Positions 686-7,197 of a stretch of DNA of 64,000 nucleotides are shown here, one piece after another (position 1 is the first letter of the stretch; every line of letters begins with the position of its first letter). Below the pieces are notes generated by a model. It saw nothing but the letters and a program-made list of their open reading frames with translations, made no database searches and had not been told where the DNA came from. Both the position numbers and the translations under genes were made by a program. Source of the stretch: Pseudomonadota bacterium (GTDB taxonomy: Bacteria; Pseudomonadota; Gammaproteobacteria; Nitrosococcales; Methylophagaceae); the NCBI GenBank assembly GCA_030576275.1, contig JALIBN010000019.1, positions 1-64,000 on the forward strand, written 5' to 3'.

Positions 686-1030
686 ATGAGAAACATTATT
701 CCTACATGCTCATTAGTCTTTGCATGCAATACTTATGCTACAGACCTAGAAAAAGTAGATATCGAAAAATGTTCTTATTTGGATGGGATCGCAAGAGAAA
801 CTCAGGTGATAAGAAGTGCCACTGGGGACTCTTTTGATGAGTTTAAGTTACACACTGACTAGATATACAATAAAGGATAGGGCTATAGTATCCTGCTTGG
901 TGTTGTTTGGGAGGTTTACGCTAGTGTAGATTTAAGAGAAGCCCCATCAGATGTTTTTAATTCTCTATTCGACTACTGCATTAACCAGACTATGCTAAAG
1001 AGGAAACAACAAGAGCAAGAAGCCGTATAG
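686..1030 (+). pseudogene. Decayed small secreted-protein gene
   Basis: An ATG at 686 preceded by GGGG six bases upstream starts a signal-peptide-like segment (MRNIIPTCSLVFACNTYA) and a Cys-containing mature region ending at a TAG (860-862). The same frame continues through a second TAG (878-880) into a protein-like tail with YASVDLREAPSDVF and FDYCINQ, ending at a TAG (1028-1030). The pattern of an early CxxL, a central helix and a C-terminal Cys near the end of a roughly 100-residue exported protein recalls small secreted proteins of unknown function in Acinetobacter and Pseudomonas; that likeness is from memory. Either nonsense mutations or compensating small indels near 840-880 could explain the break. 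No function is proposed. Confidence 0.5.
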
Positions 1031-1396
1031 TTGCAGTTGGTGATAAAATGAAAAATATAAAAGAGTACAAATAGTAAGCGTTCACTCTATATTTTAGTAT
1101 CTGTTTCGCAAAAGACGCTATATTTAAGTGATGGCTCTAGGCATCTTTCTGATTTTTAGTTGATTAATCGTAGGTCACCAACCCTCATAATAAATCACCT
1201 TCATTCCGAGCCTGAAGACAGTACCTCTTCCTAAGGAAAGGTTGCACCTTCTAATTGCATCAAGTGAATAATTATTTTAGAGCCGTATTGTTCGAATAAA
1301 TTAAACAACCTTAATTTTTATAGGATGATCGGTAGCTTAGTTTCAGAAATTTAAATAGCCAAAGTACTAAAAAACCCTTAAGATTGCCTACTTCAA
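1031..1396. other. Non-coding gap before the SRP RNA
   Basis: No open frame with coding character was found. A possible promoter for the downstream SRP RNA lies at 1356-1384; otherwise nothing was recognised. Confidence 0.5.
1356..1384 (+). promoter_or_regulatory. Candidate ffs promoter
   Basis: TAGCCA (1356-1361) and TAAGAT (1379-1384) are separated by 17 bases and would start transcription near 1391, just before the 4.5S RNA. Each hexamer matches four of six sigma-70 consensus positions, so the call rests mainly on position. Confidence 0.3.
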
Positions 1397-1513
1397 TGGT
1401 GATTCGCACTGGTCTCCTCGCGACGATATGTTGGTCAGCCCGTCAGACCCGGAAGGGAGCAGCGGAGCCTTCGGACTCGAGCGCCGAGATTTGGCTGGTG
1501 TGAGTCATCGCCC
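1397..1513 (+). ncRNA. ffs: Signal recognition particle 4.5S RNA
   Basis: The universally conserved SRP domain IV is visible at about 1442-1464: a GTCAG strand, the GGAA tetraloop within CCCGGAAGGG, and AGCAG on the return strand. The ends pair: GGTGAT (1398-1403) with ATCGCC (1507-1512), and TCGCAC (1404-1409) with GTGTGA (1498-1503), giving a closed rod of about 115 nucleotides, the usual size of the bacterial small SRP RNA. It partners with Ffh, and with FtsY, whose gene lies at 16694. Lying directly upstream of dnaX is a common arrangement. The exact ends are inferred from the pairing. Confidence 0.93.
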
Positions 1514-1530
1514 AATATCCTTTGCTAAGA

Positions 1531-1566
1531 CTTAATTAACTCAGCTGAAAGCGGTGAATTAAGTTT
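1531..1566 (+). terminator. Weak stem-loop between ffs and dnaX
   Basis: CTTAATT (1531-1537) pairs perfectly with AATTAAG (1557-1563), with an inner GCT/AGC pairing around a GAA loop, followed by only three T residues. It could be a weak terminator for ffs or an element in the dnaX leader. Confidence 0.3.
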
Positions 1567-1599
1567 GATGCGATTCGACACTAGGTATCAAACCATCAT

Positions 1600-3327
1600 A
1601 TGAGTTATTTGGTTCTCGCTCGAAAATGGCGGCCTAAAAAGTTTTCTGAAGTCGTTGGGCAGCAACATGTCCTTCGCGCTCTCATTAATGGTCTGGATCA
1701 AGACCGTTTGCACCATGCCTTTTTATTTGCTGGTACCCGCGGTGTAGGCAAAACAACTCTTGCGCGTATTTTGGCCAAATCACTCAATTGTGAGCAAGGC
1801 GTCAGTTCTACGCCATGTGGTGAATGTCAAAGTTGCCAAGAAGTTGATGCCGGTCGATTTGTTGACTTGATTGAGGTCGACGCCGCCTCACGTACCAAAG
1901 TCGATGATACCCGTGAGTTGTTGGATAATGTGCAATATGCGCCTAGTCGTGGTCGCTATAAAGTCTATTTGATCGATGAAGTTCATATGCTTTCAACAAG
2001 CAGTTTTAATGCTTTACTGAAAACATTAGAAGAGCCGCCACCGCACGTTAAGTTTTTATTCGCTACGACAGATCCGCAAAAACTCCCAGTCACTATTTTG
2101 TCACGTTGTTTGCAGTTTAATTTACGCCGTCTGGAATTAGAGCAAATTTCAGGTCATCTCGCTAATATTCTACAACAAGAAAATATTAAGTTTGAGTCGG
2201 GTGCTTTAACCGAATTAGCTCGCTCTGCTGATGGTAGTATGCGTGATGCCTTAAGCTTGTTAGATCAAGCTATTTCATTTGGCGCCGGTGAAGTGACTGA
2301 TCAGCATGTACATCAGATGTTGGGCACGATAAATCAGAATCAGTTGTTTCATATACTTACAGCACTTATCAATCAAGATGGCAAAGCCTTACTAGAGCAA
2401 GCTCAAGAATTGTCTTCACAAGGTCGTGACTTCACCAGCGTACTTAATGCCTTGTTAGCCTTGTTACAACGCTTGGCAACGGTGCAACTGGTACCTGGTC
2501 TTGAATATTCTAGTGATGAAGAACAACAGTTATTAACATCAATTAGTACGCAAATTAGCCCAGAAACAGTGCAGTTGTTGTATCAAATTGCCTTACATGG
2601 CAAACGCGATTTACCTTTGGCGGCTGATCCTAAAAGTGGCTTTGAGATGACATTGCTCAGAATGTTGAGTTTTCAGCCAAAAAAGTCTGAGCCCGTTAGG
2701 ATTGCTACACCGGTGAATAAGCCGCCACCAACGGCGAGTACAAAAGTTAATCGAACCGCGATAACTGAAATGCAAGTCGCCCCACCGGTTAGTTATGAGC
2801 CAACGGTGCCTGCGAGTTCGGAATCACCATCGCAGATTGCTGAACCGCCTCAACCACTAACTATACCAACGAAACCCGTACCAAAGATTGAAAAGGTAAT
2901 CGTTAGCAATCAAACAGTCAGTAAAACACTTAATGCCAGCAATTGGCTAAGTGTTATTGGTAGTTTGAAATTAGCGGCATTTTCACGCCAATTAGCTGAT
3001 AATAGTGCTTTTATTAAGTTTGAAGATAATAAAGTAACCTTAGCAATTGCACCTGAGTTGGCACATTTAAGTAGTGACAAAACACAGGACAGATTAGCGG
3101 CAGCGCTAGGAAAATATCTAGGCCAAGCAATCAAACTTGTTTTTCAGCAAGAAGCGCAACAAGATGTGATGACGGCAACGCCAACCTTAGCAGCTGAGCG
3201 AGCACATAAAAATCAACTGAGCCATCAACATGCGGTAGATTCGATCCATAATGATCCGACGGTTGATGAACTGAAACAGGCTTTCAATGGCCGAGTCATT
3301 GAAACTACAATTAAACCATTAGATTAG
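1600..3327 (+). CDS. dnaX: DNA polymerase III subunits tau and gamma
   Basis: This is the clamp-loader ATPase of the replicative polymerase. The AAA+ module shows a Walker A loop at residues 45-53 (GTRGVGKTT), the four-Cys zinc knuckle with CGECQSC, a Walker B with LIDEVHML and the sensor region [17 protein letters not shown]. The collar domain ends near residue 360, followed by a Pro/Thr-rich linker and a C-terminal tau-specific part. At 575 residues it is somewhat shorter than the E. coli protein (643). At codons 360-362 it carries the A AAA AAG heptamer used in E. coli to make gamma by a -1 shift, with a stop one codon into the -1 frame (separate entry). It is followed closely by ybaB and recR, the usual neighbours. 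Confidence 0.97.
2679..2690 (+). promoter_or_regulatory. Putative programmed -1 frameshift site in dnaX
   Basis: In the dnaX frame the codons CCA AAA AAG contain the slippery heptamer A AAA AAG (2679-2685). A -1 slip would read GTC and then TGA (2688-2690), giving a gamma-like product of 363 residues that stops just after the collar domain. The heptamer is the one used in E. coli dnaX. I could not see a strong stem-loop directly downstream; a short CGCC/GGCG stem near 2722-2736 is rather distant. Confidence 0.6.
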
Positions 3328-3341
3328 AAAGAGGAATTACA

Positions 3342-3650
3342 ATGAAAGGCGGAATGGGCGACATGATGAAGCAGGCGCAACAAATGCAAGCCAATATGGA
3401 AAAGGCGCAGCAAGAGTTGGCTTTAATGGAAGTAACGGGCCAAGCAGGTGGTGGCATGGTTAAAATTACCATGACAGGCAAGCATGATGTTAAACGCGTC
3501 AGCATTGAAGATGCTTTGTTTCAAGATGATAAAGAAATGCTAGAAGATCTGATCGCCGCTGCCGTAAATGATGCTGTTCGTCAGGTCGAAAAAACCAGCC
3601 AAGATCGTATGGCTGGTCTAATGCCTGCTGGCATGAAACTACCATTTTAA
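3342..3650 (+). CDS. ybaB: YbaB/EbfC nucleoid-associated protein
   Basis: A 102-residue protein of the YbaB/EbfC family, small dimeric DNA-binding proteins of the nucleoid. The Met/Gln-rich N-terminal helix ([19 protein letters not shown]), the central strands around [14 protein letters not shown] and the C-terminal helix with [11 protein letters not shown] are all present, and the length matches the family. The start has a good GAGG ribosome-binding site eight bases upstream. It lies 14 bases after dnaX and 19 before recR, the conserved dnaX-ybaB-recR cluster, so co-transcription is likely. Confidence 0.96.
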
Positions 3651-3669
3651 TTAGCATTACTGATATCTA

Positions 3670-4269
3670 ATGGCGAGTTTAGGACCAAGTATAGAGCAAC
3701 TGATTGATGCGCTACGATGCTTGCCGGGTGTCGGGCCAAAGTCTGCACAACGCATGGCATTTCACTTGCTTGAGCGTAACCGTGCTGGTGGTGAAAGATT
3801 AACAAGTGCTCTCAGTCAAGCCTTAGAAAAAGTGCATCATTGTCAGCAATGTCGAATTTTAAGCGAAACGGATCTGTGTAATAGATGTGGTGATGCGCAA
3901 CGCCGTCAAGATCAACTTTGTATCGTTGAGATGCCGAGTGATGTTCTAGCGATAGAGCAAGCAACGCATTACCAAGGGCAATATTTTGTATTGTCTGGTC
4001 ATTTATCACCATTAGATGGTATAGGCCCAGAAGCGTTAGGCATTCCCAAACTAATTGAACTATTTGAACAGGATACGATTCAGGAAGTTATTCTAGCTAC
4101 CAACCCAACGGTTGAGGGCGAAGCGACAGCTCACTATATTAGCCAGTTAGCACGTGCTAGAAAAATTCACGTCACACGATTGGCGCATGGTATTCCCCTC
4201 GGCGGTGAACTCGAATATGTCGACAGTGGTACACTCTCGCATGCTTTTTCAGGTCGGGAATCGATCTGA
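3670..4269 (+). CDS. recR: Recombination protein RecR
   Basis: RecR acts with RecF and RecO to load RecA on gapped DNA. The helix-hairpin-helix segment [17 protein letters not shown] is at residues 17-33, the four-Cys zinc finger follows ([16 protein letters not shown]), and then the Toprim domain, with [12 protein letters not shown] and the conserved [15 protein letters not shown]. The length of 199 residues is normal. It is the last gene of the dnaX-ybaB-recR set. The ATG has no clear ribosome-binding site, but no alternative start fits better. Confidence 0.97.
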
Positions 4270-4298
4270 TATGAAAAGAAATCAGGTAGAGTATTATT

Positions 4299-5483
4299 AT
4301 GGCTGAGCAAAAGATTCCGTTTGAATTGTTAAAAACATTTTCTGGACTGATTCATCGTCAACCACAATTTGTGACCGACAAGCTCAATGTCAAAAGTTAT
4401 CATCTTAATTTTTTAAATAAGCATGGTGATCCCCTTGATGATGACTCTCCCGTCCCCAGTTTTTTAGAGCAGTTACCGGATATTTTGCCGGCAATAAGTG
4501 ATCGGCAACAAGCACTGTTATCAATACCTGAGTCATGGCGAGATGCATTATATAAAGTTAACGACACAAACTTGTCATTGATATTGGATCTCAATGGTGG
4601 TGACTATCCTAGTGATAATACAAATAATCTTTCTTTTGCCAAACATGCTGGGTTGGTAAATGATGACGACCATTCCAATACATTACTGATTGATATGCAG
4701 AGGCTGAGTCCTCAGGTATTAACTGAACATTTGCCCTATTGGCGTCAAAATCATAAAACATTGTGTGCGACCAATGTGAATGATAATGATGAATATGAAT
4801 TTTGTAAAACGCATGCTTTAGATTTGTTAGAAGGTCTGTTCTATACAGTGCCTTTGACAAATGATAATCATAAAATACCGCTTTCAGCACAAATCTTGAT
4901 GAGCTTATTGGTAAAATTACAGGATCCTGAGGTTGACGCTGAAGATCTAGCAGTAACGATTAACAAAGACTTAAGTTTGAGTTACAAGCTTTTGCGATTA
5001 ATAAACTCTGCATTTTTTGGCTTGCCGCGTGAAGTGGACAGCATTAAACAAGCAATTGTCTTGCTGGGTCATAAAAAGATAAAAACATGGGCAAGTTTGC
5101 TCAGTTTATCTACGGTAGATAATAAGCCTAATGAATTACGTGTTGTCGCGATGACAAGAGCAAGAATGTGTGAATTACTGGCAAAATATTATAAAGCCTC
5201 TGCAGAGCTTTGCTTTGCCGCAGGTTTGTTTTCCACTCTTGATGCTTTGTTGGATAAGTCTTTGGCAACGGTTCTTGGCCAATTACCACTATCGCCGGAA
5301 CTTAGCGAAGCTTTGCTTCATAAATCCGGCCCAGCAGGGCAAGTGTTACGTGATGTATTGAATTATGAAAAAGGTGACTGGCTTGCACTTGGTACATCAC
5401 AGCTACCAGTTGAAATTATTGCTAGGTCATATTTAGATGCTATTCATTGGGCAAAAGAATTGAATACGCAACTCATCGATTAA
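4299..5483 (+). CDS. HDOD-domain signalling protein with degenerate EAL-like N-terminus
   Basis: The C-terminal half (about residues 195-390) is an HDOD domain: the segment DPEVDAEDLAVTINKDLSLS followed by YKLLRLINSAFFGLPR and IKQAIVLLGHKKIKTWASLL is typical. The N-terminal half resembles the EAL part of YuxH/CdgJ-type EAL-HDOD proteins (DLLEGLFYTVPL is the usual end of that domain) but lacks a recognisable EAL motif and metal ligands, so it is probably catalytically dead. HDOD proteins act in motility, biofilm and stress signalling, often without enzymatic activity. The stop codon directly abuts the aat start, so it is likely co-transcribed with aat-bpt. Its specific role is unknown. Confidence 0.8.
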   Translation: MAEQKIPFELLKTFSGLIHRQPQFVTDKLNVKSYHLNFLNKHGDPLDDDSPVPSFLEQLPDILPAISDRQQALLSIPESWRDALYKVNDTNLSLILDLNGGDYPSDNTNNLSFAKHAGLVNDDDHSNTLLIDMQRLSPQVLTEHLPYWRQNHKTLCATNVNDNDEYEFCKTHALDLLEGLFYTVPLTNDNHKIPLSAQILMSLLVKLQDPEVDAEDLAVTINKDLSLSYKLLRLINSAFFGLPREVDSIKQAIVLLGHKKIKTWASLLSLSTVDNKPNELRVVAMTRARMCELLAKYYKASAELCFAAGLFSTLDALLDKSLATVLGQLPLSPELSEALLHKSGPAGQVLRDVLNYEKGDWLALGTSQLPVEIIARSYLDAIHWAKELNTQLID

Positions 5484-6209
5484 ATGGCTATTACTTGGTT
5501 ACCTCTACGAGATGACGGATTATTCCCGCCAGTCAGTGAAGCATTTGATGATGGTTTATTAGCGGCGGGTGGTGATTTATCGTCGTCGCGACTTCTTAAT
5601 GCATACCGACAAGGTATTTTTCCTTGGTTTAATAAAAATGATCCTATTTTATGGTGGAGTCCTGATCCTCGCTTAGTATTGTGGACCGACCAAATTAAAC
5701 TGTCTAAAAGTTTAAAAAAGACAATTCGTACTACATTGATGACAGTGACCTTTGATCGAGCATTTAATCAGGTAATAACCGCGTGTTCACTACCGAGACA
5801 AGAGGATCTTGACCCGGAAAACAGTACTTGGATCCATCCAGATATGATCAGCGCTTACAATGAATTGCATCAACAAGGACATGCACATAGTGTGGAATGT
5901 TGGCTCGATGGCCAATTAGTCGGTGGTTTATATGGTATTGCAATTGGTCAGACATTTTTTGGTGAATCAATGTTCAGCACTGTTACAGATAGTTCAAAAC
6001 TAGCCTTAGTCGCATTGTGTCAACAATTACAGCGATGGGGATGTCCTCTTATCGATTGCCAAATTTACTCAGAACATTTAGCCAGCTTAGGGGCGGAAGA
6101 AATATCTCGCAGTAATTTTATTGAGAAACTTGATGAATTTTGCACACAAAATCCGCAAATAAGCACTGGCTTGTGGCAACTTGCTCCAGATCTTCCAACT
6201 ATCCCATGA
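5484..6209 (+). CDS. aat: Leucyl/phenylalanyl-tRNA--protein transferase
   Basis: Aat adds Leu or Phe to the N-terminal Arg or Lys of proteins, marking them for ClpS/ClpAP degradation. The family signature is clear: GLLAAGGDLSSSRLLNAYRQ, GIFPWF and ILWWSPDPRLVL in the N-terminal part, then HSVECWLDGQLVGGLYGIAIG and FFGESMFS in the GNAT-like core. The length of 241 residues is close to E. coli (234). The ATG follows the preceding stop with no gap, and the gene overlaps bpt by four bases, so the two N-degron transferases are translationally coupled. Confidence 0.97.
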   Translation: MAITWLPLRDDGLFPPVSEAFDDGLLAAGGDLSSSRLLNAYRQGIFPWFNKNDPILWWSPDPRLVLWTDQIKLSKSLKKTIRTTLMTVTFDRAFNQVITACSLPRQEDLDPENSTWIHPDMISAYNELHQQGHAHSVECWLDGQLVGGLYGIAIGQTFFGESMFSTVTDSSKLALVALCQQLQRWGCPLIDCQIYSEHLASLGAEEISRSNFIEKLDEFCTQNPQISTGLWQLAPDLPTIP

Positions 6210-6919
6210 GTGATACTTTAGCTTTTTATCAAGATTCCGCACATCCTTGCTCTTACCTAGAGGGGCGCGAGGCGAGTAATATTTATCCTGATCCAAATAA
6301 ACCGATGACTAATGCGCTATATAGTCACCTAATACAGTATGGATTTAGACGTAGTGGTGATTTAGCTTATCGACCACATTGCCTTAACTGCCAAGCTTGT
6401 GTGCCAGTGAGGATTAATATCGCTAAATTCACATTAAATAGGAGTCAGCGTCGATGTTTACAACGAAATCAACATCTCAATGTCAGTCATCACCCCGCAT
6501 CATTTAATACTGAGCATTATGAGCTGTATTGCCGTTATTTGGCCGCTAGGCATGTTGGTGGTGGAATGGATAATCCGACAGAACAAAGTTACATTAATTT
6601 CTTAATATCAATCTGGTCTGAAACAGGTTTTATTGAAATTAGAGACGATAAAAGGCTTGTTGCTGTCGCAGTGACAGATTATGTTCAACATGGATTGTCC
6701 GCATTGTATACATTCTTTGATCCTGACATGAAAGCCAACAGTCTTGGAACTTATGCCATTCTGCAACAAATTAATATTGCTCAAACACGCGGTTTACCTT
6801 GGATTTACTTGGGTTATTGGATAAGTAATTGTCAAAAGATGAAATATAAACAAAATTTTTCAGGCGTAGAAGGTTACATTAATCAGAAATGGCAAGCTTT
6901 AAATGATGAAAAACTTTGA
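6206..6919 (+). CDS. bpt: Aspartate/glutamate leucyltransferase (Bpt/Ate family)
   Basis: A bacterial arginyl-transferase homologue that adds Leu to N-terminal Asp/Glu of proteins, feeding the same degradation route as Aat. Diagnostic segments are CSYLEGREASNIYPDP near the N-terminus, HCLNCQACVPVRI, NRSQRR and, in the GNAT-like half, YTFFDPDMKANSLGTYAI and YLGYWI. The start at 6206 (ATGA overlapping the aat stop) gives 237 residues and the expected N-terminus; an in-frame ATG at 6140 would add 22 unrelated residues. The order aat-bpt-infA is common in gammaproteobacteria. Confidence 0.95.
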   Translation: MSDTLAFYQDSAHPCSYLEGREASNIYPDPNKPMTNALYSHLIQYGFRRSGDLAYRPHCLNCQACVPVRINIAKFTLNRSQRRCLQRNQHLNVSHHPASFNTEHYELYCRYLAARHVGGGMDNPTEQSYINFLISIWSETGFIEIRDDKRLVAVAVTDYVQHGLSALYTFFDPDMKANSLGTYAILQQINIAQTRGLPWIYLGYWISNCQKMKYKQNFSGVEGYINQKWQALNDEKL

Positions 6920-6978
6920 ATAATCAGTCGTTTTCCTGCAAAATAGTCGTTTAATTTTTGAGTGAACATTAGAATTTT

Positions 6979-7197
6979 ATGTCAAAAGAAGAACATATTG
7001 AATTTGAAGGCACTGTAATAGATACCATGCCAAACACTACTTTCCGAGTAGAATTGGAAAATGGTCATGTTGTGACAGCGCATATTTCTGGAAAAATGCG
7101 AAAAAACTACATCCGTATCTTAACGGGCGATAAAGTAACTGTTCAACTTACACCTTATGATCTGAGTAAAGGTCGCATTACATACCGAGCTCGATAA
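6979..7197 (+). CDS. infA: Translation initiation factor IF-1
   Basis: A 72-residue S1/OB-fold protein that occupies the ribosomal A site during initiation. The sequence is near-canonical: a [12 protein letters not shown] start, [33 protein letters not shown] and the terminal [10 protein letters not shown]. It follows bpt by 59 bases, the usual place. A perfect 26-base palindrome lies about 100 bases downstream and may serve as its 3' end, though it lacks a T-tract. Confidence 0.98.

Follow-up and report, generated by a model that had tools for sequence, protein, structure and literature searches.

A slippery heptamer at the domain III edge of dnaX in a Methylophagaceae bacterium, and clearer candidate frameshift sites in a neighbouring genus

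The dnaX gene in the stretch of DNA analysed here (the window, 64,000 nucleotides of a Methylophagaceae genome) carries the slippery heptamer A_AAA_AAG exactly where the codons of clamp-loader domain III end, with a stop codon waiting one codon further on in the -1 frame. Judged from the sequence comparisons below, the likeliest reading of this site is as an unstimulated, low-efficiency relative, or a look-alike, of a real programmed frameshift signal, and we hold this reading at about even confidence. The clearer result, conservation of the heptamer throughout, comes from g15, a neighbouring genus of the same family, in which dnaX frameshifting could better be demonstrated. Taken for the window species by itself, the finding is a modest one. 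The two genera differ in the position of the heptamer, in its stimulators and partly in their lysine tRNAs, and this provides a testable comparison of how such a signal is kept, lost or moved. The importance of a short DnaX product was long disputed, and such products are made by frameshifting, transcriptional slippage or proteolysis (PMC5009743).

The slippery cassette in the window

The gene and the site consist of the following features.

1600..3327, + strand: dnaX, DNA polymerase III tau subunit, 575 aa (open reading frame, ATG at 1600)
2293..2685, + strand: codons of clamp-loader domain III, residues 232-362, ending at the heptamer (Pfam PF12169)
2666..2669, + strand: TGAG, the sole trace resembling a Shine-Dalgarno (SD) sequence, with 3-nt anti-SD matches 9-10 nt ahead of the heptamer, judged too weak (anti-SD scan)
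2679..2685, + strand: slippery heptamer A_AAA_AAG, 0-frame codons 361-362 (direct reading)
2686..2760, + strand: region for a possible 3' stimulatory hairpin, with structure no better than that of shuffles (folding z-scores)
2688..2690, + strand: -1 frame stop TGA, one codon (GTC) past the heptamer (direct reading)

Pfam matches in the product are DNA_pol3_delta2, the lid, DNA_pol3_gamma3 (232-362) and DNA_pol3_tau_5 (436-569), that is, clamp-loader domains I-III plus tau domain V, and NCBIfam NF005942 is matched above its cut-off; the preliminary description of this DNA had thus named the gene correctly. Codons 359-364 read CAG CCA AAA AAG TCT GAG, and no second in-frame A_AAA_AAN is present in the gene. 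That description had also given the heptamer as exact and in the correct phase, and a -1 slip as leading through GTC to TGA and ending the product at residue 363, all of which agrees with our reading; the predicted -1 product of 363 aa would end just past domain III, whose Pfam match stops at residue 362. Its comparison with E. coli gamma, said to end likewise right after the collar domain, holds on the window side but not on the E. coli side, where the slip codon is 429, 70 residues past F359, the counterpart of the residue that marks the end of domain III. Closely upstream of dnaX, at 1407-1503, lies a gene for the bacterial small SRP RNA, which likewise adjoins dnaX in 14 of 14 g15 loci checked.

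The site shares with the known -1 frameshift site of E. coli dnaX (Rfam RF00382) the heptamer in the same gene and phase, a UGA after one -1 codon, a product with domains I-III and the peptide KKSEP. Unlike E. coli, the window shows neither an SD resembling AGGGAG nor a 3' hairpin, it is not matched by RF00382, its site lies right at domain III and not ∼70 residues past it, and its genome has a second lysine tRNA whereas E. coli has one. The label 'E. coli-type', given to the site earlier, is therefore not supported.

Stimulatory signals and lysine tRNAs

An SD stimulator upstream of the window heptamer was rejected, the longest Watson-Crick match to the anti-SD being 3 nt compared with 4 nt for E. 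coli in the same scan. Downstream, simple folds of the window gave no 3' structure beyond that of shuffles (z 0.17, 0.52, -0.16 and -0.30), in accordance with the earlier remark that no strong 3' stem-loop is obvious. These z-scores are insensitive, as the E. coli dnaX hairpin itself scores 0.17, and the absence of a hairpin shared by the window's clade is thus the stronger argument: a conserved 3' hairpin was rejected because the three clade loci L001, L003 and L004 share none. Folded singly, L003 may form a 5-bp hairpin (z -1.53), the hairpin of L001 is weak and L004 has none, and the register of the hairpin described below for g15 is absent from the clade, where 3, 3 and 2 of its 10 pairs are found. 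The RF00382 model (DnaX frameshift element) gave no match in window positions 1000-7000, in any of 40 genomes (the window's own included, g15 outside the set), or in the 17 loci made up of L001, L003, L004 and 14 g15 loci, whereas E. coli scored 96.8 bits. Because the g15 loci also go unmatched, the model is evidently narrow. Moreover, a site without stimulators need not be inefficient, since three g15 genes (L136, L137 and L140) keep the heptamer without a recognisable SD.

The heptamer A_AAA_AAG is slippery in E. coli, where the sole tRNA-Lys pairs weakly with AAG (PMC5009743). Both tRNA-Lys(UUU) and tRNA-Lys(CUU) are encoded in the window genome, and the second of these should keep AAG from slipping. 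A tRNA-Lys(CUU) gene was located in two genomes.

L169:1501-1576 (G000:C26:60294) and G006:C14:25214: tRNA-Lys(CUU) gene, the copies 96% identical and their flanks different

By pattern search these are the only cases among 57 family genomes (2/57), and both G000 and G006 belong to the window's clade; excluded from the count were matches to tRNA-Asn, to CAU-anticodon tRNAs and to tRNA-Lys(UUU) that had been let in by mismatches, and a G017 match unlike a tRNA. The gene was not found in G001, the third clade genome, which is 88% complete, nor with two patterns in the 24 g15 genomes. Such absences are likely rather than proven, because a comparable but stricter search pattern failed to find tRNA-Lys(UUU) in 20 of 63 genomes and a covariance search of G051 gave no lysine tRNA whatsoever. 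All six outgroup-family genomes carry tRNA-Lys(CUU), and their six dnaX linkers are without the heptamer. In most of the window's genus (g1) neither this tRNA nor the heptamer was found, so the tRNA set is no simple switch. A decayed partial copy of tRNA-Lys(CUU) is present at G000:C26:46408-46449 (in L289), ∼14 kb from the intact gene.

Low efficiency is favoured because the SD match is 3 nt long, no 3' structure or shared hairpin is seen, tRNA-Lys(CUU) is present and Rfam gives no match. We infer that slippage occurs at all, that it is inefficient and that tRNA-Lys(CUU) damps it. Most ribosomes would then read through 2679-2685 and produce full-length tau, and a minor fraction, of a few percent, may slip by -1 at the AAA AAG codons, incorporate a single valine and terminate at 2690. 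The outcome would be a gamma-like protein of 363 residues that consists of domains I-III. In Caulobacter a shorter gamma-like DnaX product arises by proteolysis (PMC5009743), whereas the window product is predicted from frameshifting.

The site in g15 and its possible origin

Genus g15 comprises 24 genomes of the window's family (loci L128-L137, L139-L146 and L148-L153). The contig title Methylophaga sp. occurs in both genera, for L033 (which contains g15 L148) and for L032 (which contains g1 L008), and cannot separate g1 from g15. A_AAA_AAG is present in the linkers of all 23 intact g15 dnaX genes, where shuffling would give 0.99, and also in the 24th, L153, whose reading frame is interrupted upstream and which was left out of the shuffles. 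The heptamer lies 14-16 codons beyond domain III (22 in L145), and the -1 stop follows 1-6 codons after it. Upstream, at least 4 contiguous anti-SD matches are found in 15 of the 23 genes, three in 4 genes and none in 4, the background being 135 of 1150 control positions in the linkers. On the 3' side, a hairpin that begins 17 nt beyond the heptamer shows at least 8 of its 10 pairs in 14 of the 23 genes; in the remaining nine it shows 3-7. In L136, L137 and L140, which lack a recognisable SD, 5-6 of the 10 pairs are present and the hairpin is interrupted. Because the heptamer occurs in every g15 dnaX examined, often with stimulators, the earlier idea of frameshifting in this gene is reasonable.

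The g15 hairpin was evaluated further on 19 chosen sequences, with L134, L142, L145 and L152 excluded as looking unlike the rest (the pair counts above separately cover all 23). Standard pairs fill 75.3% of cells compared with 67.4% after shuffling, and 19 two-sided changes are seen compared with 8.6, values that 0 of 500 shuffles reach in either case; sliding the partners by 1-3 columns leaves at most 46.3% standard pairs. Two further measures fell within the shuffles (pairs with a two-sided change, 139/500; further pair types, 491/500), and RNAalifold gave no consensus hairpin over the 23 g15 sites or over a 9-member subgroup. The support from these statistics is biased upward, because the structure was derived from the same, selected sequences. 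Moreover, a 17-nt spacer would be long, since reported frameshift spacers are 5-9 nt in many studies and 12-15 nt in a minority (PMC5009743). Directly ahead of the heptamer, L134, L136, L137, L140, L141, L143 and L151 have GGG or GGGG followed by CCCCC, which could pair as a small hairpin.

The g15 and window genes are thus alike in the heptamer, in a -1 stop within 1-6 codons and in a location in the linker soon after domain III, and they differ in that the g15 site stands 14-22 codons past domain III, commonly with an SD-like match of at least 4 nt (15/23) and the hairpin (14/23), in genomes where tRNA-Lys(CUU) was not found. This likeness raises the alternative that the window site is itself a fully functional programmed -1 frameshift site, making substantial gamma with the help of an unrecognised stimulator, and that it is either the g15 signal moved by ∼12 codons through a linker deletion or a replacement site. 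Besides the conservation of the heptamer throughout g15, this alternative draws on the 12-nt cassette of the window, AAAAAAGTCTGA, which is identical in five g15 genes (L143, L144 and L149-L151) and also occurs in two Amphritea-titled loci, L072 and L098, on the presence of KKSEP in E. coli as well, and on the phylogeny, where the window clade and g15 as a single clade are not rejected (p-AU 0.12). We nevertheless consider it doubtful, because the window species has neither SD nor hairpin and possesses a second lysine tRNA, g1 congeners outside the clade are without the site, and in the tree, whose backbone is weakly supported, the window clade and g15 stand apart.

The presence of A_AAA_AAG on the tree needs 3 changes, and retention with a ∼12-codon linker deletion and independent gain are both possible. 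That a dnaX frameshift site is able to shift position is already in print (PMC4066793). A wider proposal, which we put forward as speculative and rather unlikely, is that the dnaX frameshift signal turns over within the family, g15 keeping the heptamer in all its members, often with the hairpin, most of g1 having none, and the window clade having a bare cassette moved to the domain III edge in the sole lineage of the family where tRNA-Lys(CUU) was found. If true, this clade would amount to a natural experiment, with the gain or retention of a single tRNA gene weakening or retuning both programmed frameshifting and the ratio of gamma to tau. Outside the family, 90 dnaX loci had 10 linker heptamers, and in 4 of these a -1 stop follows within one codon, the background being 11.3%. 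A literature search for Methylophaga together with dnaX gave a single match, a paper which, in the part available, concerns resistance genes in a polluted lake.

Conservation in the window's genus and chance expectation

A readable dnaX linker was available for 25 of 29 g1 genomes (the window's own included), G002, G005, G009 and G022 being dropped. The cassette occupies the equivalent place in three of the 25, namely G000, G001 and G006, which form the window's tight clade; this clade is supported 100/99 in the tree of DnaX domains I-III (L155 left out), and DnaX protein identity to the window is 93% for G001 and 83-85% for G006. Conservation in close relatives, which the preliminary description had proposed as the check on its claim, is therefore found in part: the heptamer and the -1 stop are retained in the two nearest species (L003 and L004), whereas the remaining 22 of 25 genomes lack them at this position, and any conservation beyond codon expectation would concern 3/25 genomes, all of one clade with low synonymous divergence. 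Among those 22, A_AAA_AAG is present in one (L014), placed 26 codons later, and 0.76 would be expected from shuffles of 21 non-clade genomes (the partial gene L155 left out). Across the linkers compared, the window site is no part of a genus-wide pattern.

Within the clade AAAAAAGTCTGA is identical in L001, L003 and L004, and the linker behind it is 46-50% identical; 3 of 217 12-nt stretches of the clade linker are fully identical, and 3 linker heptamers are observed against 0.21 expected from shuffles. The cassette abuts the conserved domain III, which brings an edge effect into its apparent conservation. Constraint on synonymous sites around the site was looked for and not found, as nine 15-codon windows rank 82-232 of 561. 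Since no more than 17-35% of comparable codons have changed synonymously within the clade, and the surrounding windows are not unusually conserved, the fact that three species retain the 12 nt is a weak argument.

For the window gene, 5.5% of 1000 within-gene synonymous shuffles placed, among the 50 codons past domain III, an A_AAA_AAG that meets a -1 stop no more than 8 codons on. The heptamer by itself is neither rare nor clearly avoided, because 12 in-frame copies were counted in 464 kb of the window genome (343 open reading frames of at least 150 aa), where 15.5 +/- 4.2 were expected. Genome-wide avoidance was not significant in the genomes sampled (G000, 12 versus 15.5; G051, 9 versus 10.6; G012, 9 versus 14.5). 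A nearby -1 stop is likewise weak evidence by itself, since 16 of 62 linker positions meet one within one codon. Taken alone, the window site would be suggestive but short of compelling. Pure coincidence would mean that the Lys-Lys pair after domain III happens to be written AAA AAG, that tRNA-Lys(CUU) holds the frame and that no meaningful gamma is made. This explanation, which we regard as improbable, is compatible with the shuffle chance of 5.5% per species, the low divergence of the clade, the frequency of -1 stops in the linker and the presence of tRNA-Lys(CUU), and also with g1 loci L007 and L122, where the Lys-Lys pair is encoded by the non-slippery AAG AAA. It accounts less well for the exact retention of both heptamer and stop by three species within a fast-changing linker, and for the conservation of the heptamer in g15, a genus of the same family.

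Thermus thermophilus resembles the window species in having two lysine tRNAs, an A run in dnaX and a short product, which it makes by transcriptional slippage (PMC5009743), its run being of 9 As and that of the window of 6 (PMC3711429). That gamma arises in the window species by such slippage is very improbable, for although the linkers of congeners L011 and L016 contain runs of 9 As, the 6 As of the window are below the 8 or more often seen (PMC3711429), and A_AAA_AAR is near chance in g1 outside the clade (7/21 versus 4.36 expected, reached by 45 of 500 shuffles). On the same figures, a genus-wide enrichment of A_AAA_AAR (9/25 versus 3.55 expected with the clade included) was dropped. In a g1 subclade of six (L010, L014, L016, L018, L019 and L020), picked post hoc, A_AAA_AAR occurs 5 times against 2.37 expected (14 of 500 shuffles), an excess that is suggestive. 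The heptamers concerned, in L010, L014, L016, L018 and L019, stand at differing places in the linker.
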